Of a DNA stretch of 39,786 bases, positions 1,503-32,063 are shown piece after piece. The notes beneath the pieces are model-generated. The model had not been told where the DNA came from, ran no database searches, and worked only from the letters and a program-made list of their open reading frames with translations. The first letter of the stretch is position 1. The number at the start of each line of letters is the position of its first letter. A program made the position numbers and the translations under genes. Source of the DNA: a virus; IMG/VR virus record IMGVR_UViG_3300037847_005806, positions 1 to 39,786 of that record; one strand, written 5' to 3'.

Positions 1503-2548
1503 TGAAAAAGGATATAAGTAAATTTTTATATATCCTAATCATGGCTATAGCTTTTAGTTGTAGCCTTGCTTTTGGACAGGGTGATTTCTTTAAATACTCT
1601 ACTTTTTATACTTCAATGAGTATGAATACAAGTATGGTTGAAAGAGAGGATTATATGGCTATAGATAGGGGTTATGAAGATGTAACTGAAATAAATCCCT
1701 TTGATTACTCTTTAAGATTTGGATTGCGTAAGGTGGCCAGATATGATTATGAGTATAAGGTTAAGACTTGGTATTATGGTAATGAAAAGGCTGTTTCTGA
1801 TAATGTTGCCATTGGAAACGCTGTTGGTTGGGAATACCTACTTAATTATTCTTTTATAAGAAATAGGGGGGAGAAGTTTACAGAGCAAAATTTTTGGTTG
1901 AGGTATCTGGGAAGTAAGTGTGTGACTAAAATTCAATACAAGGACAATCAGAGGGTTGACTTGAAGTACACATCTTTTGATAGCAGATACAGGATGACTT
2001 TTGGTAAACTGGATTTAAGTGTTGGAGTGTGTTTCAGAACGCATCCAGCCTATGGATTTTTACCAATCCGAGATTTTTGGACTCCAGGTGAGTCATCCTT
2101 TTCTCAACTTGCTAATGACTTTGGTTATAGTTTTGAATTTGTAAATGGAGATTTACATTGGTTTGAGGGTGATGAGTTGTTAGCAACATCAAGTGATGAG
2201 TTTTATAAACACTATTTTGGTCAAGCTATTGCGGAATTTAATGAAAGAGAGTTAGAAAAACTTGGCACACAAAAGGAAGTTAGTGCTGTATTAGGTGCTT
2301 CTTTTTATAATTACAACCCTAAATTTTGGGTGCATGCTTGGCTTAATGTTTTGCCTTATCATCATGGATTAGACGATTATTCTTTTGAGTATGGATATGG
2401 TATGGATAATTTAGATTGGGATTCAGGAATGGTTTTAGGTTTGCGTGTCACTAAAAGTTTAGGTATATTTGTGGAGGGGCTTCATCAAAGATATTGGGGT
2501 AAAGAGGTTTTTGAATGTAAGTTTGGGTTTAATTATTTAATATTTTAG
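1502..2548 (+). CDS. Predicted exported outer-membrane beta-barrel protein
   Basis: The 348-residue protein starts with a signal peptide (basic MKKDISK, a hydrophobic stretch to about residue 22, then AFGQ, a typical Bacteroidota signal peptidase I site). The body alternates aromatic and polar residues in many short strands (for example YEYKVKTWYYG, YRMTFGKLDLSVGVCF, FWVHAWLNVL) and ends in FGFNYLIF. A C-terminal Phe is the classic outer-membrane barrel signature. No lipobox is convincing. It sits between virion genes and the lysis block, so it is probably expressed late. Inference: a barrel placed in the host outer membrane, perhaps to block superinfection or help release. A virion protein is less likely because of the signal peptide. 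Confidence 0.65.
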   Translation: MKKDISKFLYILIMAIAFSCSLAFGQGDFFKYSTFYTSMSMNTSMVEREDYMAIDRGYEDVTEINPFDYSLRFGLRKVARYDYEYKVKTWYYGNEKAVSDNVAIGNAVGWEYLLNYSFIRNRGEKFTEQNFWLRYLGSKCVTKIQYKDNQRVDLKYTSFDSRYRMTFGKLDLSVGVCFRTHPAYGFLPIRDFWTPGESSFSQLANDFGYSFEFVNGDLHWFEGDELLATSSDEFYKHYFGQAIAEFNERELEKLGTQKEVSAVLGASFYNYNPKFWVHAWLNVLPYHHGLDDYSFEYGYGMDNLDWDSGMVLGLRVTKSLGIFVEGLHQRYWGKEVFECKFGFNYLIF

Positions 2549-3626: not shown

Positions 3627-3975
3627 AATAGTAATACTATTTTTGTTCTGTCAATATTTGACAGCTCAAGAATTTATAACAGAAAGAAACTATCAAAGTA
3701 AAATCGGTAGTGGAGTTGTTGTTGTAGAGGTTTGGGCTGAATTTAATAAAGCTAATGAGGTTTCCTGGATTGGTGACTTAAAGGACTGTAAGGTCTATAG
3801 GATTGATATACAGGAGGCCTCAAGCTTAAATATAAAAACTGTTCCAACAGTTATAGTTTACAGCTCAGGAGAGGAGGATAGTAGGTTTAAAGCTAATATT
3901 ATGTTAGAGTTAAATGCTACAAAAAAAGAAGTTCAAGAAGTTGTTGACAAAATAATTTTATCCAAATTTGAATAA
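3598..3975 (+). CDS. Exported thioredoxin-fold protein lacking the catalytic CxxC
   Basis: The 125-residue protein has a signal peptide (hydrophobic IVILFLFCQYL followed by TAQ). The mature part follows the thioredoxin pattern: a strand VVVVEVWAEFN in place of the usual VDFWAxWC, then a region around NIKTVPTVIVYSSGEE that matches the cis-Pro strand (xxxxPTxxxxxxG), and a C-terminal helix. The positions where thioredoxins carry WCxxC read EFNKAN, so both active-site cysteines are missing and redox chemistry is unlikely. It overlaps the upstream gene by 29 bp and abuts the endolysin (TAATG). The start could also be the Met at residue 5. Confidence 0.6.
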   Translation: MKDYMKWLSKIVILFLFCQYLTAQEFITERNYQSKIGSGVVVVEVWAEFNKANEVSWIGDLKDCKVYRIDIQEASSLNIKTVPTVIVYSSGEEDSRFKANIMLELNATKKEVQEVVDKIILSKFE

Positions 3976-4454
3976 TGAAATTATCAGAAAATTTTTATCT
4001 CTCTGAGTTTTTAAAATCTAATGTAGCAATGAGAAAAAACCTTTCAAATGAGCCAACTACTCATCAGATAGGTCAAATGAAGATTTTATGCGAAGAGCTA
4101 TTACAGCCAATTAGAGACTGTTTAGGACCTATTGGCATTAATTCAGGGTTTAGGTCCGAAGAATTAAATAAAGCTCTTGGAGGGGCTCACAAGTATATTA
4201 ATGGGGTTTACACAGCAACCAGTCAACATTGCAAGGGTCAGGCTGCTGATTTAAGATATATTGATGTAAATAAAAAATTAAATAATAAGGCTATATGGGA
4301 TTGTGTTTTAGAGTGTGGCCTTGAATTTGACCAAATGATTAATGAGTTTGATTATGCTTGGATTCATATTTCATTTAATAAAGGTCACAATAGAAATGCT
4401 TTATTAGAGGCTTACAGGGGTGAGAATGGTAAAACTAAATATAAAAGAGTATGA
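3975..4454 (+). CDS. Peptidoglycan peptidase of the M15 family (endolysin)
   Basis: The 159-residue protein shows the M15 layout: a helical N-terminus, the NSGFRSEELNKALGG motif (about residue 56 on), the zinc motif SQHCKGQAADL with His and Asp ligands (about 82-92), and a final WIHISF His (about 135). M15 enzymes cut peptide bonds in the peptidoglycan stem (D-Ala-D-Ala or L-Ala-D-Glu type). No signal peptide, so it needs a holin to cross the inner membrane; the holin-like gene follows with a 4-bp overlap. The start overlaps the upstream stop (TAATG). Confidence 0.85.
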   Translation: MKLSENFYLSEFLKSNVAMRKNLSNEPTTHQIGQMKILCEELLQPIRDCLGPIGINSGFRSEELNKALGGAHKYINGVYTATSQHCKGQAADLRYIDVNKKLNNKAIWDCVLECGLEFDQMINEFDYAWIHISFNKGHNRNALLEAYRGENGKTKYKRV

Positions 4455-4825
4455 TTAAGGGATTTATAAAATCATTGATTGGTGATGCGTCAACTATTAT
4501 AGATGATGTTGTTACATCTAAAGAAGAAAAAATGGCACTTAAAAATGCTATGAAAAAAATGTTATTAGAATCAGAAGTTGAGTTACAAAAAAATGTAACA
4601 GAAAGATGGAAAGCAGATATGCAATCTGATTCATGGTTAAGTAAAAATGTAAGGCCTCTTACCCTTGCTTTTCTTTTAGTATCTACAGTTTTACTTATAT
4701 TTATAGACGCAGGATTTATTGACTTTGAGGTTAAAAATTCATGGGTTGACCTCTTGCAACTTGTTATGATTTCTGTCGTGGGGGCATACTTTGGAGGTCG
4801 CTCATTAGAGAAGATTAAAAAATAA
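4451..4825 (+). CDS. Holin-like membrane protein
   Basis: The 124-residue protein has an amphipathic, charged N-terminal half (to about residue 65, with WKADMQSDSWLSKNVRPLTL) and two membrane segments (about 72-88 and 99-115). It closes with GGRSLEKIKK. This arrangement matches the phage family often called 'holin of 3TMs / gene-transfer release'. It overlaps the endolysin gene by 4 bp. It would form the inner-membrane lesion that lets the M15 endolysin reach the cell wall. It is the last gene of the block; the next gene has its own promoter. Confidence 0.75.
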   Translation: MIKGFIKSLIGDASTIIDDVVTSKEEKMALKNAMKKMLLESEVELQKNVTERWKADMQSDSWLSKNVRPLTLAFLLVSTVLLIFIDAGFIDFEVKNSWVDLLQLVMISVVGAYFGGRSLEKIKK

Positions 4826-9768: not shown

Positions 9769-9801
9769 TTTGGAAGTTATAAAAACATTGTTTTATATTT
9801 G
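9769..9801 (+). promoter_or_regulatory. Promoter, Bacteroidota type, with a 200-nt leader
   Basis: TTTG (9769-9772), 21 bp, TATATTTG (9794-9801). The first coding ATG is about 200 bp downstream, far longer than the 15-45 bp leaders at most other promoters here. Confidence 0.8.
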
Positions 9802-9804
9802 TAG

Positions 9805-10004
9805 TGTAACGAGTAAGCGATTACATTGATAGTTGAATTTATATTGAGAATAAATAAAACTTGAGTTAGGTTAATAACTAAACAAACGAAGTCAATAGTA
9901 ATGTAAGCCTGAAAGTCTGAACTATCAGAATAATAGTGGTTAGGTTTAACAATAATTGCCGAGCAACCTAAAATTGAATTATATTATTTAACTTAAAAAT
10001 TAAA
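9805..10004 (+). ncRNA. Candidate structured leader RNA
   Basis: Between the promoter and the ATG at 10005 there is no convincing frame but a series of hairpins. These are GTAACG/CG(A)TTAC (9806-9824), ATTTAT/ATAAAT (9837-9855), AGTTA/TAACT (9864-9879), ACTAT/ATAGT (9921-9937) and TTAGGTT/AACCTAA (9940-9971). Long-range pairs GATAGTT (9828-9834) with AACTATC (9920-9926) and TTACATT with AATGTAA compete with these, so a pseudoknot or switch is possible. It does not match a riboswitch class I know. Confidence 0.45.
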
Positions 10005-10214
10005 ATGATGAACACAACAGAAAATTTAAATAAACAAGAATTAATTGAAAAACACATTGAGGATATAGATATTGCCTTTGTAATTGATAGTGCCCTGAAT
10101 GGTGCATTGGAAGAGATAGAGAGACAATTAATAGCCGATAATTGTCCAGATGATATATTTCATATTGTCAAAGATGAAGTCTTTGTAAATAAAATTACAA
10201 TAGATAGAAATTAA
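10005..10214 (+). CDS. Small acidic protein behind the structured leader
   Basis: A 69-residue protein; ATG codons at 10005 and 10008 are both possible starts. It is helix-prone (KQELIEKHIEDIDIAFVIDSALNGALEEIE) and acidic, without membrane segment or known motif. First gene of a three-gene operon (to 10771) driven from 9769. Confidence 0.55.
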   Translation: MMNTTENLNKQELIEKHIEDIDIAFVIDSALNGALEEIERQLIADNCPDDIFHIVKDEVFVNKITIDRN

Positions 10215-10242
10215 AATAATTACTAATTTAAAAATAAACAAA

Positions 10243-10569
10243 ATGAATACAAAATTTAATTATAAAGGAACAGAATTAGAAATTTTAAGACAAAGTGTAT
10301 CAAGAAGAGGAGGGGGGATTGAAATTGATTTATCAAACTTGGGGTTTTATGGTGAGAAAATGAGTGCTTTCCAAAACTATTTAGGAGGGGGCATGTTGGG
10401 TAAAGTTGATAACGATTGTACTTATAGAAATTTTAGAAATGATAAGTTATTGTCTGATGTTGCGTTACATTTAGGTATGTACTTTCACACATTAACAAAT
10501 CCCCCTATTGATGATTGGGGCAATAGAGATTTTTATGATAACCAAAATTTGCCTGTTAGTGCATATTAA
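10243..10569 (+). CDS. Unknown early protein, Gly-rich
   Basis: A 108-residue protein with Gly-rich turns (SRRGGGIEIDLSNLGFYGEK, then YLGGGMLGKV), separated from its neighbours by 28 and 16 bp. No signal peptide or membrane segment. G-runs in this gene (GGAGGGGGGATT, GGAGGGGGC) stand out against the AT-rich surroundings. No family recognised. Confidence 0.55.
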   Translation: MNTKFNYKGTELEILRQSVSRRGGGIEIDLSNLGFYGEKMSAFQNYLGGGMLGKVDNDCTYRNFRNDKLLSDVALHLGMYFHTLTNPPIDDWGNRDFYDNQNLPVSAY

Positions 10570-10585
10570 TTTAATATAGATAGTT

Positions 10586-10771
10586 ATGAGTAAGAATAAA
10601 AAATTAATAGAACTAAACGCAGAACAATTAGATTATTTAATAAGAGTAGTTGAAATTGACATGGAAACTTTGGAGGAGAATATGGAGCATGATGTACTTG
10701 AGGGGGAAGTGCTTGAGTTAAATATGATACAGAATCTGTATAGCAGATTAGTAAGTTTAAATAAAGTTTAA
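10586..10771 (+). CDS. Small acidic helical protein
   Basis: A 61-residue protein (MSKNKKLIELNAEQLDYLIR...) that looks like a two-helix hairpin with acidic faces (METLEENMEHDVLEGEVLEL). It starts 16 bp after the upstream gene, in the AGTTATG context, and closes the operon before hairpins at 10797 and 10911. No family recognised. Confidence 0.55.
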   Translation: MSKNKKLIELNAEQLDYLIRVVEIDMETLEENMEHDVLEGEVLELNMIQNLYSRLVSLNKV

Positions 10772-10796
10772 TTTAAATATAAATTTTTCAAACAAA

Positions 10797-10835
10797 AATA
10801 AGGTGCTTTTTGTTTGTTTGTTGTTGCACCTTATT
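10797..10835. other. Long-stem hairpin in non-coding DNA
   Basis: AATAAGGTGC (10797-10806) pairs perfectly with GCACCTTATT (10826-10835) around a 19-nt T/G-rich loop. On the plus strand it is followed by an A-run, not T, so it is not a plus-strand terminator. On the minus strand it is followed by TTTGTTTG, but no minus-strand gene is near. It may be a 3'-end stabiliser or part of a small RNA. Confidence 0.5.
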
Positions 10836-10910
10836 AAAAAAAAATAACTCTGAAAGCAAATTAATATAAGTATATTATATTATAGAAATCTTAAGTTGTG
10901 TATTTTTTTC

Positions 10911-10944
10911 CCTCCTATTTTTCTCAAGAATAGGGGGTTTTTTT
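10911..10944 (+). terminator. Rho-independent terminator
   Basis: CCTCCTATT (10911-10919) pairs with AATAGGGGG (10929-10937), including one G-U pair, followed by seven T (10938-10944). It ends the 9769 operon. Confidence 0.8.
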
Positions 10945-10948
10945 GTAT

Positions 10949-11012
10949 AAAAAAGTCCTGAGAATTTTCTTTTATAGAGTAAAAAAGTCTTGGGGTTTTT
11001 CTTTTAATAGTT
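10949..11012 (+). repeat. Repeat pair C: two tandem 32-bp units
   Basis: Units 10949-10980 and 10981-11012 start AAAAAAGTC(C/T)TG and end in TTTTCTTTTATAG or TTTTCTTTTAATAG. The cores start at 10956 and 10988, again 32 bp apart. The first unit is the closest to the consensus of all six copies. Confidence 0.8.
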
Positions 11013-11048
11013 ATTTTGGGGCATACCTCTCCCCCTAAAAATTCCACT

Positions 11049-11067
11049 ATTTAGAATTATTCTAAAT
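11049..11067. promoter_or_regulatory. Perfect 9-bp inverted repeat (operator-like)
   Basis: ATTTAGAAT (11049-11057), one T, ATTCTAAAT (11059-11067): a 19-bp palindrome in the non-coding stretch 10772-11232, between repeat pair C and the promoter at 11173. It may bind a dimeric regulator. The remainder of 11068-11172 is AT-rich with nothing I can name. Confidence 0.4.
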
Positions 11068-11172
11068 AATAAAATTTAATCTATCTACTATCAAACGCAA
11101 GAATAATAAAAATATATTAAAATTCAAAATTTTAAAGCAATTATTTTTTTTTAAAAAAAATTATAAAAAAAT

Positions 11173-11203
11173 TTTGTAATTAAAAAAATTCAATTTATAT
11201 TTG
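11173..11203 (+). promoter_or_regulatory. Promoter, Bacteroidota type
   Basis: TTTG (11173-11176), 19 bp, TATATTTG (11196-11203). The surrounding AAAAAATTTTGTAATTAAAA is almost identical at the next promoter (11466). Confidence 0.8.
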
Positions 11204-11232
11204 TGTCATTATTAACAAACAAATTTAAAATT

Positions 11233-11448
11233 ATGCAAATTCAGTATTTTACAGAACAATTTTTTAAAAAAAGATTACCAAAAACATTTGATACAAGTAA
11301 AGCAAAAAACTATTATATAAATAGAGAAAAATTTAAAAACATAATCAAAATATATGAAAATAAAATATGGAACAAAGATTTTAAAAACATGGATGAAAAA
11401 TCAAAAAAAGTTTTATTTGACTTATTGAGGGATATGCTATGGAAATAA
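11233..11448 (+). CDS. Small basic protein, unknown function
   Basis: A 71-residue, strongly Lys-rich protein (MQIQYFTEQFFKKRLPKTFD). The frame is open from a GTG at 11203, but that codon lies in the promoter -7 element, so the ATG at 11233 is taken. No family recognised. It forms a single-gene unit; a second promoter of the same sequence follows 17 bp after its stop. Confidence 0.55.
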   Translation: MQIQYFTEQFFKKRLPKTFDTSKAKNYYINREKFKNIIKIYENKIWNKDFKNMDEKSKKVLFDLLRDMLWK

Positions 11449-11465
11449 AAAAAGTTTAAAAAAAT

Positions 11466-11496
11466 TTTGTAATTAAAAAAAAGATTTATAAATTTG
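11466..11496 (+). promoter_or_regulatory. Promoter, Bacteroidota type
   Basis: TTTG (11466-11469), 19 bp, TAAATTTG (11489-11496). The ATG of the next gene is 30 bp downstream. Confidence 0.75.
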
Positions 11497-11525
11497 AATT
11501 ATTATTAACAATAAAAGCAAACAAA

Positions 11526-11801
11526 ATGAAAGTTAAAAATTTAATTAGTGATAAGGGAAATGTAATTCCAAACCAATTTCAAATAGTAAATAATAATACT
11601 ATTTATTTTCAAAGTTATGAAACAATAATAGCAAAGATAAATAAAAGGACTATGTATTGTGATGAAATTATATTAGATACTCATGCTCTAAACTATAGCC
11701 GAACGACATCAAAATATCTATATAAATTTCTAAATATGAATAGAAAGGAAATAGAAAATTTAATCAAGAAAAAAGAAATAAAATTAAAAAATTTAAATTA
11801 A
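11526..11801 (+). CDS. DUF8033-like small protein
   Basis: The 91-residue protein contains NLISDKGNVIPNQFQI, then IYFQSYETIIAKI, a Leu-Asp strand, and NYSRTTSKYLYKFL. This GN.V.NQF ... FQSY..IIA ... YS.TT.KY...FL order is that of a small domain frequent in phages and Bacteroidota elements (remembered as DUF8033; not searched). Function unknown. Single-gene transcription unit. Confidence 0.55.
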   Translation: MKVKNLISDKGNVIPNQFQIVNNNTIYFQSYETIIAKINKRTMYCDEIILDTHALNYSRTTSKYLYKFLNMNRKEIENLIKKKEIKLKNLN

Positions 11802-11803
11802 AA

Positions 11804-11835
11804 TTTGGTAATTAAAAAAATAGTATTTATATTTG
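11804..11835 (+). promoter_or_regulatory. Promoter, Bacteroidota type, for the ribozyme operon
   Basis: TTTG (11804-11807, in AAATTTGGTAATTAAAA), 20 bp, TATATTTG (11828-11835). It begins only 3 bp after the upstream stop codon. Its transcript contains the 36-residue peptide, the hammerhead ribozyme and two further genes. Confidence 0.8.
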
Positions 11836-11860
11836 TATAAACAAACAAAAATTTAAAGAC

Positions 11861-11971
11861 ATGAAAAAAGCAATAACAATTATTACAACATTATTAAAAA
11901 TTATTCATATAGCAATGGCTCTGACTTTTTTTAGTTGGGTATTATATAACATGATAATAAATATAATATAA
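11861..11971 (+). CDS. 36-residue membrane peptide upstream of the hammerhead ribozyme
   Basis: ATG at 11861 opens MKKAITIITTLLKII, and the frame runs through a hydrophobic segment (AMALTFFSWVLYNMIINII) to TAA ending at 11971. A single membrane helix with a basic N-terminus. It lies 25 bp after a strong promoter, and its stop codon directly abuts stem I of the ribozyme at 11972. Function unknown. Confidence 0.6.
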   Translation: MKKAITIITTLLKIIHIAMALTFFSWVLYNMIINII

Positions 11972-12031
11972 AATATAACTGATGAGTCCTAAAAGGACGA
12001 AACGCATAATTAATTTTATGCGTCTTATATT
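11972..12031 (+). ncRNA. Type I hammerhead ribozyme
   Basis: All parts of a hammerhead are present in order. Stem I 5' strand AATATAA (11972-11978); core CTGATGA (11979-11985); stem II GTCC/GGAC (11986-11989, 11995-11998) with loop TAAAA; core GAA plus A15.1 (11999-12002); stem III CGCATAA/TTATGCG (12003-12009, 12016-12022) with a 6-nt loop; U16.1 and C17 (12023-12024); stem I 3' strand TTATATT (12025-12031). Stem I is the open helix, so the type is I. Predicted self-cleavage is after C12024. It lies between two co-transcribed cistrons. No core residue is missing. The short stem I shows no obvious loop for tertiary contacts, so activity may be modest. Confidence 0.93.
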
Positions 12032-12050
12032 AAACAAACAAATTTAAATT

Positions 12051-12251
12051 ATGAGAAATTTTAAAAACTTTATTAAAAAAATTATATTAGTTGCGTGTCC
12101 TTTGTTGGTGTTGGGTTGTGGTGTTGGGGGCATGGTTTATATTATTGATTCGTTAGGCTTAACCGATAGTATCATATTAATGGGGGCGTGTTGTTTCTTG
12201 CGTGGTGCGTGGCTTATGTTTAGCAATATGAATATAAATATAAAATACTAA
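12051..12251 (+). CDS. Small two-span membrane protein
   Basis: A 66-residue protein with basic N-terminus (MRNFKNFIKK) and two hydrophobic segments (about residues 11-32 and 38-58) containing CGVGG and GACC clusters. A lipobox-like VLGC precedes the cysteine at about residue 23, so a lipoprotein is possible. Its start codon is 27 nt beyond the predicted ribozyme cleavage site, so the cleaved mRNA would carry a short 5'-OH leader. Confidence 0.55.
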   Translation: MRNFKNFIKKIILVACPLLVLGCGVGGMVYIIDSLGLTDSIILMGACCFLRGAWLMFSNMNINIKY

Positions 12252-12255
12252 AGAC

Positions 12256-12459
12256 ATGGAAAAAAATATATTAACATATCAAGAATTTAAAAAAGATAAT
12301 AGAGTTGAATTCTTTAATAAAAAGGTGCTATTTAGAACAAAAGAAAAAACATACTTTTTATTTAGCAAATCAACAAATTATCAACACAATGAACAAAATT
12401 TATATAATTGTTACGAATATATCAAAGAAAATAAAACGCACTTAATACAAAAGGAATAA
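12256..12459 (+). CDS. Small charged protein, unknown function
   Basis: A 67-residue protein (MEKNILTYQEFKKDNRVEFF...) starting 4 bp after the membrane protein stop. It has short strands (KVLFRTKEKTYFLFSK) and a polar C-terminus. Last gene of the early region before the terminator at 12504. No family recognised. Confidence 0.5.
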   Translation: MEKNILTYQEFKKDNRVEFFNKKVLFRTKEKTYFLFSKSTNYQHNEQNLYNCYEYIKENKTHLIQKE

Positions 12460-12503
12460 TAAATTTTTGTTTGTTGCTACTAAAAAAAATAATCTAATTT
12501 TTT

Positions 12504-12531
12504 AAACCTCTATTTTATAGGGGTTTTTTTT
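12504..12531 (+). terminator. Strong rho-independent terminator ending the early region
   Basis: AAACCTCTAT (12504-12513), loop TTT, ATAGGGGTTT (12517-12526, one G-U pair), followed by T through 12531. Confidence 0.85.
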
Positions 12532-12824
12532 ATATATATATATTATATATCCTATTTAACATAATATAAATTATAGGACAATATATATATCTTATCTGTA
12601 TAAGGGGTATATATAGGGGGGGCATATGGTAAGCAATTTATATACATTATACAACACTAATACACTTAATTTAAGCCTATTTTAAAGCGTTCTAATGAAT
12701 TTAAAAAAAATTTGAAATAAAATATATATTCATTTACGAGATGAGGGCTTAGAACTCAGGGGGTCAGATATTTACACTACTTTTTCCTCTTCAAATTATT
12801 ATACACATTGTGTAATATATTTCC
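12532..12824. other. Non-coding region before the terminase genes, candidate packaging site
   Basis: About 290 bp without a credible gene. It holds alternating TA tracts, an inverted pair TCCTAT ... ATAGGA near 12550-12580, G-runs (TATATAGGGGGGGCATATGG near 12610) and ACTCAGGGGGTCAG near 12757. Phages commonly keep pac or cos sites beside the small terminase gene, which follows. No specific site can be proven from sequence alone. Confidence 0.35.
12802..12814. promoter_or_regulatory. Palindrome upstream of the terminase promoter
   Basis: TACACA-T-TGTGTA (12802-12814) is a 13-bp palindrome ending 10 bp before the -33 element of the next promoter, a usual position for an activator or repressor site. 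Confidence 0.45.
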
Positions 12825-12855
12825 TTGACATTTAAGAAGCTTTTACATATTTTTG
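12825..12855 (+). promoter_or_regulatory. Promoter for packaging and tail genes
   Basis: TTGAC starting at 12825, 20 bp spacer after TTG, TATTTTTG (12848-12855), an exact TAnnTTTG match. The palindrome at 12802 lies just upstream. First gene start is 28 bp downstream. Confidence 0.75.
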
Positions 12856-12882
12856 AAAAATAATTATTATGCACTAAATATT

Positions 12883-13338
12883 ATGGATAAAAAACAAGAT
12901 ATTAAATCAGAGATTATTGAAACTGGAACTGATAAAATTCCAACTAAATTTGAGGGTAAAGCTACTAAGTTAGAGGCTCACAAGAGAACTTCTGAGATAG
13001 TTAGATTGGTTTTACAGGGAATTAGATATACTGATATAGTTGAGTATTGTGAGAAGAACTGGGGAATACAAAAGAGACAAGCCTCTATTTATTATAAAAG
13101 GGCTTTGGAGTATTTTAAAGAGCAATTTGATGAAGAGAAGCAATTTGAAGTTGATAAGCACACAATGATGTTATATGATTTATATACTAAGGGTTATAGA
13201 AGTGGTGATTTAAATATTTGTAGATTACTTTTACAGGATATTGCAAAGATGAAAGGAATTAGTATAGATAGGTTAGATTTAACAAGTGGAGGTGATTCAT
13301 TTGTGTTTAATTACACAAAACCTGAAGATGAGAAATAA
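12883..13338 (+). CDS. Probable terminase small subunit
   Basis: A 151-residue, highly charged protein. The frame opens at a TTG (12853) inside the promoter, so the ATG at 12883 is chosen. Residues about 35-75 (KRTSEIVRLVLQGIRYTDIV, then WGIQKRQASIYYKRALEYF) form a helix-turn-helix as in small terminases that recognise phage DNA; the rest is helical and could oligomerise. It lies first in the packaging operon, two genes before the large terminase. Role inferred from position and fold pattern. Confidence 0.65.
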   Translation: MDKKQDIKSEIIETGTDKIPTKFEGKATKLEAHKRTSEIVRLVLQGIRYTDIVEYCEKNWGIQKRQASIYYKRALEYFKEQFDEEKQFEVDKHTMMLYDLYTKGYRSGDLNICRLLLQDIAKMKGISIDRLDLTSGGDSFVFNYTKPEDEK

Positions 13339-13370
13339 ATATAATATTCCCAGTCTCAATAATTTTTTAG

Positions 13371-13401
13371 TTTGTTTTGACAAGCAAAACAATTATATTT
13401 G
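13371..13401 (+). promoter_or_regulatory. Promoter overlapped by an inverted repeat
   Basis: TTTG (13371-13374), 19 bp, TATATTTG (13394-13401). An 11-bp inverted repeat, TGACAAGCAAA (13378-13388) and TTTGTTTGTCA (13398-13408), one G-U mismatch, covers the -7 element. Either an operator or, in RNA, a hairpin. The next ATG is at 13504. Confidence 0.6.
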
Positions 13402-13503
13402 TTTGTCAGAAATAAATAACTCTAAAAAACAAACGAGACCTCAATTTAATAAAAATAAATTAATAATTCAAGAAACTTTTTTCACAAATTAAAATTAATA
13501 GAT

Positions 13504-13854
13504 ATGACAAAGAAAGCAACTCCCCCAACACTTAATGTAGATGTAGAATTTTATTTAAGAGTTTTAGATTCTTCTGCTAAAAATAGAGAGTCTGATTCTG
13601 ACGCAATGTTTAGAATGTATATTAAATGGCTTGGTAAGAGATATTTTGTTTCAACACTAAAGTTATCTATATGCAGAGCTTTAATTGGCTCAGGAATTGA
13701 GTATAACACTATGGTTAGTCAAGCAAGAGGTGAGGGATTGCCTGATGATGGTATTCCACCTGTTATAACAAAATCAATACCCCATACTGATTTTATTGCA
13801 TGGGCTAAAAAATACGAAAAATCATCTGCTTACAAAACTTTTCAAAACTTTTAA
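13504..13854 (+). CDS. Unknown protein between terminase genes
   Basis: A 116-residue protein (MTKKATPPTLNVDVEFYLRVLD...) with a helical first part (residues 12-60) and a Pro/Asp-rich loop (GEGLPDDGIPPVITK). No membrane segment. It lies between the probable small and large terminase genes, so a packaging-related role is possible, but nothing in the sequence proves it. Confidence 0.55.
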   Translation: MTKKATPPTLNVDVEFYLRVLDSSAKNRESDSDAMFRMYIKWLGKRYFVSTLKLSICRALIGSGIEYNTMVSQARGEGLPDDGIPPVITKSIPHTDFIAWAKKYEKSSAYKTFQNF

Positions 13855-13857
13855 ACT

Positions 13858-14019
13858 ATGAACTTTTTAAAAAAAATTTTAAATAAAAATGTTGACTTGT
13901 TAACCAATGTATTTGTGGTAATATCATTTTTTTGGTTAATGCCAGTATTAATACTGTTTCTATTTTGTAAATTTGTTATAGGAATACCAGTAAACTATGT
14001 TATCGGTAAATTGAAATGA
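13858..14019 (+). CDS. 53-residue membrane protein
   Basis: ATG at 13858 opens MNFLKKILNKNVDLLTN, followed by a long hydrophobic stretch (about residues 18-43, VFVVISFFWLMPVLILFLFC) and a short tail ending KLK. It starts 3 bp after the upstream stop and overlaps the large terminase start (ATGA at 14016). A membrane peptide in a packaging operon is odd; function unknown. Confidence 0.6.
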   Translation: MNFLKKILNKNVDLLTNVFVVISFFWLMPVLILFLFCKFVIGIPVNYVIGKLK

Positions 14020-15329
14020 ATATAGATTTTAAGCCAACAATAAAACAACATAAGGCTTGGGAATATTTGCATGACGAAACAACATCTGAAATATTATTTG
14101 GAGGCTCTGCTGGTGGTGGTAAGTCTTATTTTGGAGCTGCCTGGTTATTATACTCCTGCCTAAGATACCCTGGAACAAGATGGTTAATGGGAAGAGCTGT
14201 TCTAAAAACATTAAAAGAAACCACTCTTAATTCTTTTTTTTCTGTTTGCGGTGATTGGAAAGTTAAAAAAGGTGAACACTACAAGTTTAACGCTCAATCT
14301 AATGTTATTGAATTTACTAATGGCAGCCAAATCCTATTAAAAGACCTTTATCAATACCCAGCTGACCCTAATTTTGACTCTTTAGGGTCTCTTGAGATTT
14401 CTGGTGCTTTTGTAGATGAGGTAAACCAATGCACAGAGAAAGCAAAGAATGTGGTTGCTTCCAGGATTCGTTATAAACTTGGCGAATTTGGCCTGCGGCC
14501 AAAGATACTTATGTCCTGCAACCCAGCCAAGAACTGGGTTTATGATTTCTATAAACAATGGAGAGATGACATTTTACCAGAACACCAAAAATTTATCCAG
14601 GCAAAATTAAAAGATAATCCACACATTTCAGAATACTACGAAAAACAACTAAAAACACTTGACCCAGTTTCAAGAGAAAGGCTACTTCATGGTAATTGGG
14701 AGTATGACGAGGGTAAAGATAGATTGTTTGATTATGAAGCCTTGCTTGATTGTTTTAAGCAATCTATAAAGCCAGGTGATGATTCTTACCTTTCTTGTGA
14801 TGTTGCTCTTATGGGAAGTGATAAAATGGTTATAACAAGGTGGAAAGGCATGGTTGTTGAAGAAATTATAACAAAAGACAAGAGTTCTGCTAATTCTATT
14901 GAGGCATTAATTAAGAAAATAGCCGAAAAACACAATATTCCAAGAAAAAACATTGTAATTGACTCTGATGGCGTTGGTCAATACCTTTCTCACTATATGA
15001 AAGGCGTTACAGCGTTTATAAACAATAGTAAACCAATGAAAAAGGAAAATTACAAAAATTTAAAGACTCAATGCTATTATAAGCTTGCGGAAGAGATAAA
15101 TGCAGGTAATATACATATAAAATGCAAAGATATTGAAATAAGAAATAAAATTATTGAAGAATTAGAGGTTGTTAGAAGAAAAAACATAGATGTAGATGGA
15201 AAATTGGCTATTTTGTCTAAAAAAGAGATAAAAGCAGCTATCGGTAGGTCTCCTGATTATGGAGATAGCTTGATGATGAGGATGAAATTTTTATTTGGTG
15301 GGGGTAAAAAAATATTAGCATGGGGATAA
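14016..15329 (+). CDS. terL: Terminase large subunit
   Basis: The 437-residue protein is the DNA-packaging motor. Its N-terminal ATPase has Walker A GGSAGGGKS (residues 29-37), Walker B ISGAFVDE (about 128-135) with the catalytic Glu, and a coupling motif MSCNP (about 165). The C-terminal RNase H-like nuclease has acidic residues in SCDVALMG (about 260), VIDSDGVG (about 315) and SPDYGDS (about 413). Length fits the family. It starts within the stop of the membrane peptide gene (ATGA). It cuts concatemers and pumps DNA through the portal. Confidence 0.95.
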   Translation: MNIDFKPTIKQHKAWEYLHDETTSEILFGGSAGGGKSYFGAAWLLYSCLRYPGTRWLMGRAVLKTLKETTLNSFFSVCGDWKVKKGEHYKFNAQSNVIEFTNGSQILLKDLYQYPADPNFDSLGSLEISGAFVDEVNQCTEKAKNVVASRIRYKLGEFGLRPKILMSCNPAKNWVYDFYKQWRDDILPEHQKFIQAKLKDNPHISEYYEKQLKTLDPVSRERLLHGNWEYDEGKDRLFDYEALLDCFKQSIKPGDDSYLSCDVALMGSDKMVITRWKGMVVEEIITKDKSSANSIEALIKKIAEKHNIPRKNIVIDSDGVGQYLSHYMKGVTAFINNSKPMKKENYKNLKTQCYYKLAEEINAGNIHIKCKDIEIRNKIIEELEVVRRKNIDVDGKLAILSKKEIKAAIGRSPDYGDSLMMRMKFLFGGGKKILAWG

Positions 15330-30346: not shown

Positions 30347-30378
30347 CAATTATACTAAAAATATATTAAAATTCCAAA
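30347..30378 (-). promoter_or_regulatory. Internal promoter of the replication operon
   Basis: On the minus strand TTTG (30375-30378), 20 bp, TATAATTG (30347-30354), one mismatch from TAnnTTTG. It overlaps the 3' end of the primase-helicase gene and could uncouple the last five genes. Confidence 0.5.
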
Positions 30379-32063
30379 TTTTGTTGTTGAAATTGTTTTA
30401 TATATGGGTTGTTGTCAGGTTGTTCTATCTGTTCAAAATATCTACCATTTTGTAAATTATAATTAAATATAGCCTCACCTATTTCGCCAATATGTCTAAA
30501 TTTAACTTTCTGAACATAAACATGTATAAAGTTTGTTTCAAAATTTCTATAAACAGTAATGCCATTGTCAACTTGGTTATAAAAATTAGCAGAGCCAGCT
30601 ATATCATATAATGTTGGAACTTCATATAAACCATTATCTTTTTTACTCATTTTTCTTGGGTGTGCAACTAAAAATATATGTATATCATATTTTTGTTTAA
30701 ATATAGTTAGTTTAGTTAAAAACTCATTTATGTATTGAGTTTCACTCTGTCCATTAAAACTTGCGTGTATTTTGTTATATGGGTCTATAATTAAACCTTT
30801 AATACCATGTCTCTTTACTAATGCAGCAGCAGAAGATAATATTGAATCTATTGTAAACACATCACCATCAGGCCTTATCCAATGATATTTTTTAGATATA
30901 AATTTTTTAGCAAAATCAAGTTCTTCTTTATTCATTCTTTCATATATAGTTTTCTCTCTAAATGTTTTTCCTATAAACTTCTCTGCTAATACAGAAAAAT
31001 GTAATTGTAATGGGTAATGCTCAGGTGAGAAAACACCAAAACTCCAATTATGTTTACATGAAAGTCTCATACATATATGTTCAAGCCAATTACTTTTACC
31101 ATGAGTAGGTACTCCTGTTATTACAGTAAGTTGTGATGTGTTAAAAGTAAAAAGCCTATCAAAATTCTGATGACCTGAAGCATCACCTCTTGATAAACCA
31201 TTATTGTATAAATCATCTATATCTAAATTAAAACCATCTACACTTATAACACCCTCCAATGGGTATGCTTTAGCATATTTTAATGTCTTTTCTAATGTTT
31301 GTAATCCTTTATTTAAAATCCAATCATTAGCATCTTTATGATTTAAAAAGTCAACTCTATAACAAATATCTCTACCTATTCTCCTGGATAACTCTTCAGC
31401 TAATTTTCTACCTGGGCCATCATTATCTGTTGCTATATAAACTTTCTTTAAATCATCAGGAAAGTCTTTTAAATAGTCTAATTTTAAGTTAGATGCACCA
31501 TTAGGAACTGATACGCAATTTTTAAATCCTGCCTCATAATATGATAACTTATCCATCTCTCCCTCAACAATAATAACCTCATCACAATCTTTTATATCAT
31601 CTAATCCATATAATATTTTTTCAGCATCTTTTACAAGTTTAAAGTTTTTTTCACCATCTCTATATTTAATATTTATAAGTTCACCATCTTTATAATAATT
31701 AAATTGTATAGTATTTCTTTCACCACTAACTTGTGGCATATATTCATTACCCTCACTAACTTTGTTGCTTATTAAGGTTTTTTCACTAATTCCTCTATCT
31801 TTAAAAAAGTTAATCATACCTGAACTATATTTTGATAATTCTGGTTTTTTAGTTGGTCTTTTGTAAAATACTTCTTGCATATAATTTGTTTTTTTTAAAC
31901 TTCCTTTCCATCCACAATTATGGCAATTCCAAATACCCTCATCTATATTTACAGATAAACATGGCTCACTCTTTTTTCTTCTTTCATGTGAGCATTTTGG
32001 ACATTTTGTTTTAATCTGCCCTGATGATTTATTAATATATATTCCATTCTCTCTAAATGTCAT
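30366..32063 (-). CDS. Bifunctional primase-helicase (T7 gp4/Twinkle type)
   Basis: The 565-residue protein has three parts. First, a zinc-binding primase domain (C21, C24, C47, C50). Second, a TOPRIM domain (VIIVEGEMDK near 164, ATDNDGPGRK near 211, HKDANDWI near 243). Third, a RecA-fold helicase with Walker A GVPTHGKSNW (about 315-324) and Walker B GLIIDPYNK (about 425). Together they make RNA primers and unwind the fork. It overlaps the upstream winged-helix gene by 4 bp. No DNA polymerase gene is recognisable in this genome, so the host polymerase must extend the primers. Confidence 0.9.
   Translation of the reverse strand: MTFRENGIYINKSSGQIKTKCPKCSHERRKKSEPCLSVNIDEGIWNCHNCGWKGSLKKTNYMQEVFYKRPTKKPELSKYSSGMINFFKDRGISEKTLISNKVSEGNEYMPQVSGERNTIQFNYYKDGELINIKYRDGEKNFKLVKDAEKILYGLDDIKDCDEVIIVEGEMDKLSYYEAGFKNCVSVPNGASNLKLDYLKDFPDDLKKVYIATDNDGPGRKLAEELSRRIGRDICYRVDFLNHKDANDWILNKGLQTLEKTLKYAKAYPLEGVISVDGFNLDIDDLYNNGLSRGDASGHQNFDRLFTFNTSQLTVITGVPTHGKSNWLEHICMRLSCKHNWSFGVFSPEHYPLQLHFSVLAEKFIGKTFREKTIYERMNKEELDFAKKFISKKYHWIRPDGDVFTIDSILSSAAALVKRHGIKGLIIDPYNKIHASFNGQSETQYINEFLTKLTIFKQKYDIHIFLVAHPRKMSKKDNGLYEVPTLYDIAGSANFYNQVDNGITVYRNFETNFIHVYVQKVKFRHIGEIGEAIFNYNLQNGRYFEQIEQPDNNPYIKQFQQQNLEF

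Follow-up and report, generated by a model that had tools for sequence, protein, structure and literature searches.

In 2011, hammerhead ribozymes were reported from positions between small genes of phages, and were proposed to cut long phage transcripts into gene-length mRNAs (Perreault et al., PMC3088659). The locus described here poses the question of their role in a simple form: what does one hammerhead do within a short transcription unit, directly behind one stop codon and shortly before the next start codon? The viral record that contains it is 39,786 bases long and classed as linear; it was analysed whole and is referred to as the window. The ribozyme kind, its setting and its proposed role are all known beforehand; we consider that this hammerhead probably serves to process its own mRNA in cis, with both its cleavage and the uncoupling of the cistrons being predicted from the features listed below.

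11804–11835 (+): Bacteroidota-type promoter TTTG-N20-TATATTTG, exact consensus match
11861–11971 (+): hydrophobic ORF of 36 aa, likely with a single membrane helix; ends in UAA at 11969–11971
11972–12031 (+): entire type I hammerhead ribozyme, RF00163 at 40.0 bits
11972–11978 (+): stem I 5' strand, AAUAUAA (direct reading)
11979–11985 (+): core C3–A9, CUGAUGA (direct reading of bases)
11986–11998 (+): stem II, GUCC(U)-AAA-(A)GGAC (direct reading and loop covariation)
11999–12001 (+): core G12-A13-A14, GAA (direct reading of bases)
12002–12023 (+): stem III, 8 bp with a 6-nt loop, A15.1–U16.1 included (structural scan)
12024 (+): C17, with predicted cleavage 3' of C12024 (inferred from the hammerhead rule, GUC triplet)
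12025–12031 (+): stem I 3' strand, UUAUAUU (direct reading)
12025–12050 (+): 26-nt leader of the 3' product, from the predicted cut at C12024 to the AUG at 12051
12051–12251 (+): 66-aa ORF, hydrophobic, Cys/Gly-rich; homologue in locus L142, 42% identical
12256–12459 (+): 67-aa ORF; homologue in L142, 55% identical
12504–12526 (+): intrinsic terminator with T-run, closing the unit (terminator scan)

The ribozyme and its transcription unit

Judged by its bases, the element is a complete type I hammerhead, for which self-cleavage is predicted. The original prediction had proposed a search with the Rfam covariance models, and RF00163 (Hammerhead_1) matches 11973–12030 (+) across the whole of the model (1–45), scoring 40.0 bits where the gathering threshold is 34, with an E-value of 7.2e-7, this being the sole Rfam match in the record. 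The invariant core is intact, comprising CUGANGA, GAA, the A15.1–U16.1 pair (A12002–U12023) and H17, and G16.2-U16.1-C17 can be read directly as GUC at 12022–12024. There are three stems, of 7, 5 and 8 bp, and both ends of the molecule lie within an open stem I, as in type I topology. Stem I consists of A-U pairs throughout (11972–11978 with 12025–12031), stem II of four pairs plus one U-A pair (11986–11990 with 11994–11998), and the strands of stem III are 12002–12009 and 12016–12023. The RF00163 match and the reading of the core bear out the type, strand and cleavage site first proposed, and each of the invariant elements claimed was verified in the sequence. The stem lengths given at that time hold for stem I (7 bp) and for stem II (4 bp, to which the U-A pair is to be added), whereas stem III has 8 bp and not 7, the A15.1–U16.1 pair having been left out. 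Compared with RF00163, the window ribozyme shares the core, the three stems, the GUC triplet and the open stem I, and is structurally no different; its stem I is A-U only.

When 600 first-order Markov copies of the window were scanned under a lenient rule (at least 14 bp), 4 hammerhead-like calls were obtained, as against a single call of 20 bp in the real window. In folding, the ribozyme region is more stable than shuffled sequences (z -4.3). Stem I is a weaker element: a rival 8-bp register, 11964–11971 with 12025–12032, can form with the last bases of the ORF, stop codon included, at a predicted energy of -17.0 kcal/mol against -15.6 for the stem I register (tertiary energy not included), and in a 409-nt context (11842–12250) the predicted probability of the stem I pairs is near zero. 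An all-A-U stem I with a competing register would therefore counsel caution towards the cleavage reading.

Tertiary structure provides a more independent line of evidence. Relatives of the locus lack the ribozyme, and for this reason covariation was scored on phage hammerheads at large; stem pairing counts were excluded as evidence because the scanner itself demands pairing, while pairing at position 7 was not among the search criteria, so that its covariation is usable. Among the matches listed, 193 phage hammerhead clusters have a 5-nt loop II, and in these the last nucleotide of loop II covaries with position 7 of the 3' strand of stem I (z 31.8 against shuffles), with counts of 150 for U/A, 18 for A/U and 17 for G/A, making this the strongest of 110 column pairs. 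In the window the pair is A11994/U12031, that is A/U, the rarer form of the U/A pair. U11990, A11992 and A11972 agree with the phage consensus, A11972 being the conserved position-7 A found in 96% of those listed phage type I hammerheads whose loop II has 5 nt. The loop II/stem I contact thus appears to be present in the window. Loop–loop contacts have been described for type I ribozymes, and the covariation fits them (PMC6155905); it is the best sequence evidence that the window ribozyme has kept its putative tertiary fold.

The ribozyme is intergenic and in the sense orientation within a phage unit composed of the promoter at 11804, three co-directional ORFs and the terminator at 12504. The promoter consensus, TTTG-N20-TATATTTG, occurs at 11 sites in the window against 3.5 expected, and none of 100 shuffles reaches 11. 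The stem III hairpin was tried as a terminator and rejected, the U-run being absent after the hairpin. A position between two cistrons had been proposed from the outset and is confirmed, the unit having its own promoter and terminator (12504–12526). The proposed assignment to an early operon is not supported: the unit is flanked by endolysin/holin lysis genes (3975–4825) and terminase genes (12853–15329); primase/helicase lies at 30366–32063 on the opposite strand. A Pfam search with the 36-aa ORF gave no match, and the peptide is too short for the viral relative scan; promoter, leader and ATG together suggest that it is coding. For the 66-aa ORF, the viral scan found no relative.

The stretch between the predicted cut and the next gene, UUAUAUUAAACAAACAAAUUUAAAUU, is 26 nt long when counted to the AUG at 12051, correcting an earlier figure of 27. 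It contains AAACAAACAAAUUUAAAUU, resembling the leaders behind promoters 11173 and 11804, the former of which reads ..UUAUUAACAAACAAAUUUAAAAUU-AUG, and the gene starting at 12051 lacks a promoter match that belongs to it alone. The ribozyme would thereby supply the second cistron with a promoter-type 5' leader.

Four Bacteroidota-type promoters (9769, 11173, 11466 and 11804) are found in 2 kb of small ORFs at 9769–11835. Those at 11173, 11466 and 11804 have a common spacer motif, TAATTAAAAAAA, and A-rich leaders, which suggests a duplicated promoter cassette. The ORF at 11203–11448 is listed with a GTG start; ATG 11233 is the more likely start, as the promoter -7 box and the GTG overlap and the ATG is preceded by the leader AACAAACAAATTTAAAATT.

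Placement of type I hammerheads in phages

Pattern scans of viral contigs yielded at least 353 loci, the window included, and in these a structural scanner called at least 430 type I hammerheads, in at least 319 clusters. Gene calling followed a simple longest-ORF rule; 78 of the listed clusters fell within called ORFs, 66 in antisense, and were left out. Among the matches listed, 229 intergenic clusters have both neighbours; in 175 these are co-directional on the ribozyme strand, and in 7 the ribozyme is antisense to both. In 140 of the 175 co-directional clusters listed, the stop codon of the upstream gene touches or overlaps the ribozyme, against about 68 expected by uniform placement in the gap, and in 111 of the 175 it lies inside the ribozyme, as the UAA just before C3 (32), the UGA of the C-UGA core (27), or elsewhere. 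Among the matches listed, genes reading through the ribozyme being left out, a UAA just before C3 is more common when it falls in the frame of the gene (31 of 35) than when the gene reads in another frame (16 of 42; p 6e-6). The distance from cleavage site to start codon, again among the matches listed, is 15–45 nt in 63%, with a median of 26 within that range. The layout of the window, with 0 nt from stop to ribozyme and a 26-nt leader, is typical of this pattern.

Many phage type I hammerheads score 25–33 bits despite intact cores, just under the Rfam cut-off, and RF00163 at its gathering score under-reports them, missing most of those checked. Among the matches listed, 255 surveyed loci have at least one call and 170 of these have a single ribozyme; clustering of several in one genome is frequent but not required, and the record has one. 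Some phage contigs (L026, L052, L035, L077 and others) are rich in type I hammerheads, with as many as 8 in a single stretch; in such multi-copy phages there is apparently one hammerhead per gene boundary, and stem I is near-identical within a phage. A second phage group (L008, L021, L055, L110, L120 and about 30 more) has the same CUGAUGAGUCC..GGACGAAACG core and closes stem I as a hairpin, as in type II/III topology, the ribozyme body staying on the 5' side of the downstream gene. On L036, a contig that also bears a window-like hammerhead, a DUF805b RNA motif is present at 2160–2195 (-) (RF02914, 50 bits).

Proposed processing of the transcript and its possible link to translation termination

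The anatomy of the element, its class membership and the covarying tertiary contact are established by these results, as is the finding that stop-abutting placement with a leader of about 26 nt is common in phages. For the window, the processing reading would proceed as follows. A transcript from the 11804 promoter would carry three small cistrons and end at the 12504 terminator; the ribozyme would fold behind the first cistron's stop codon and cut after C12024. The upstream product would be a one-gene mRNA ending, right after its stop codon, in the ribozyme body, which would give it a 3' hairpin cap and a 2',3'-cyclic phosphate, and the downstream mRNA would begin with a 5'-OH and a 26-nt leader resembling those of the phage's own promoters. 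A terminating ribosome may delay folding of the ribozyme.

This last step can be extended to the class as a whole: phage type I hammerheads may be coupled to stop codons, with the stop forming part of stem I or of the CUGA core. Termination would then compete with self-cleavage and the cistrons would be separated only once ribosomes have cleared, the window being one instance. We regard this broader formulation as tentative and, at present, rather unlikely. That stop-codon abutment or overlap is the rule among the listed clusters nevertheless makes gating by translation a class-wide question. Slightly less likely again is the version that follows the original prediction, in which the mRNA would be cut only while the upstream cistron is untranslated and cleavage would report translation status. 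Gating of some kind would be a sound corollary of the contact with the stop codon. Stem I starts, as first proposed, directly behind the UAA of the peptide. Ribosomes at this stop would shield stem I together with some of the core; the direct contact at the window, the stops inside the ribozyme and the excess of in-frame UAA across phages all agree with it. Against this, compact packing of stop and ribozyme, where a leader is needed downstream, yields much of the same pattern (the 68 or so of 175 expected), and the core contains UGAUGA, such that any ORF entering that frame terminates there.

The processing reading has published precedents. Like the hammerheads of Perreault et al., that of the window is intergenic, on the sense strand and flanked by small phage genes, and phage and prophage hammerheads have been found active in vitro and in E. 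coli (PMC3088659). In the haloviruses HF1 and HF2, the 5' end of an early mRNA lies no more than 3 nt from the hammerhead cleavage site, which is 13 nt before a start codon (PMC3088659). Both HHphage of HF1/HF2 and the window ribozyme are thus placed shortly before a start codon, with a mapped mRNA end in HF1/HF2 only; HHphage is a salt-tuned variant in an archaeal virus, whereas the core of the window ribozyme is canonical and its carrier an 11b-like phage with an inferred Bacteroidota host. Stop codons are not mentioned in PMC3088659, and we found no description in the open-licence literature of stop-codon coupling or overlap, or of a fixed leader length, for phage hammerheads; the abutment and the leader of about 26 nt are quantified here. 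The survey offers a precise and testable placement rule: the stop adjoins the ribozyme or is contained in it, and cleavage is expected some 26 nt ahead of the next start. As a clean single-copy case with a defined promoter, leader and terminator, the window makes both monocistronic processing and its coupling to translation termination directly testable.

Relatives of the locus

The terminase shares 53% identity with its counterpart in Flavobacterium phage 11b and 50% with the one in Cellulophaga phage phi10:1, and the host is therefore probably a marine member of the Flavobacteriia. Across 80 phage loci related by their terminase (808 kb), many of them contigs ending before the syntenic position, the scanner called no hammerhead. 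No match above the RF00163 cut-off was found in 32 terminase-relative records, so conservation of the locus does not back a function here; likewise, no hammerhead reached the Rfam cut-off in phage 11b (whole) or phi10:1 (43.7 of 53.7 kb). L142 encodes homologues of the 66- and 67-aa proteins in a different order and without the ribozyme, and blastn of 11000–14000 against GenBank phages gave no match. With the ribozyme missing in relatives and the small-gene region shuffled, it is, on present comparisons, an apparent lineage-specific acquisition.

Such a history would also suit a passive passenger, a selfish or neutral element put into gene ends by recombination and cleaving without benefit, and phage hammerheads do occur in many differing gene contexts. 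The near-fixed placement relative to stop and start, the sense orientation and the tertiary covariation over at least 319 clusters nevertheless argue for selection, and we consider this explanation improbable, more so than translational gating. An inactive or chance look-alike, with hairpins that act as an attenuator or a simple 3'-end structure, is highly improbable: a consensus scan scored the stem III hairpin as terminator-like and stem I is weak with a competing register, but the hairpin lacks a U-run, all core positions are intact, the E-value is 7e-7 and the tertiary contact is kept.

In phi10:1 itself, a distant relative, an annotated RNA ligase gene with a possible link to RNA ends (L436, 13014–13514) lies shortly upstream of the terminase.
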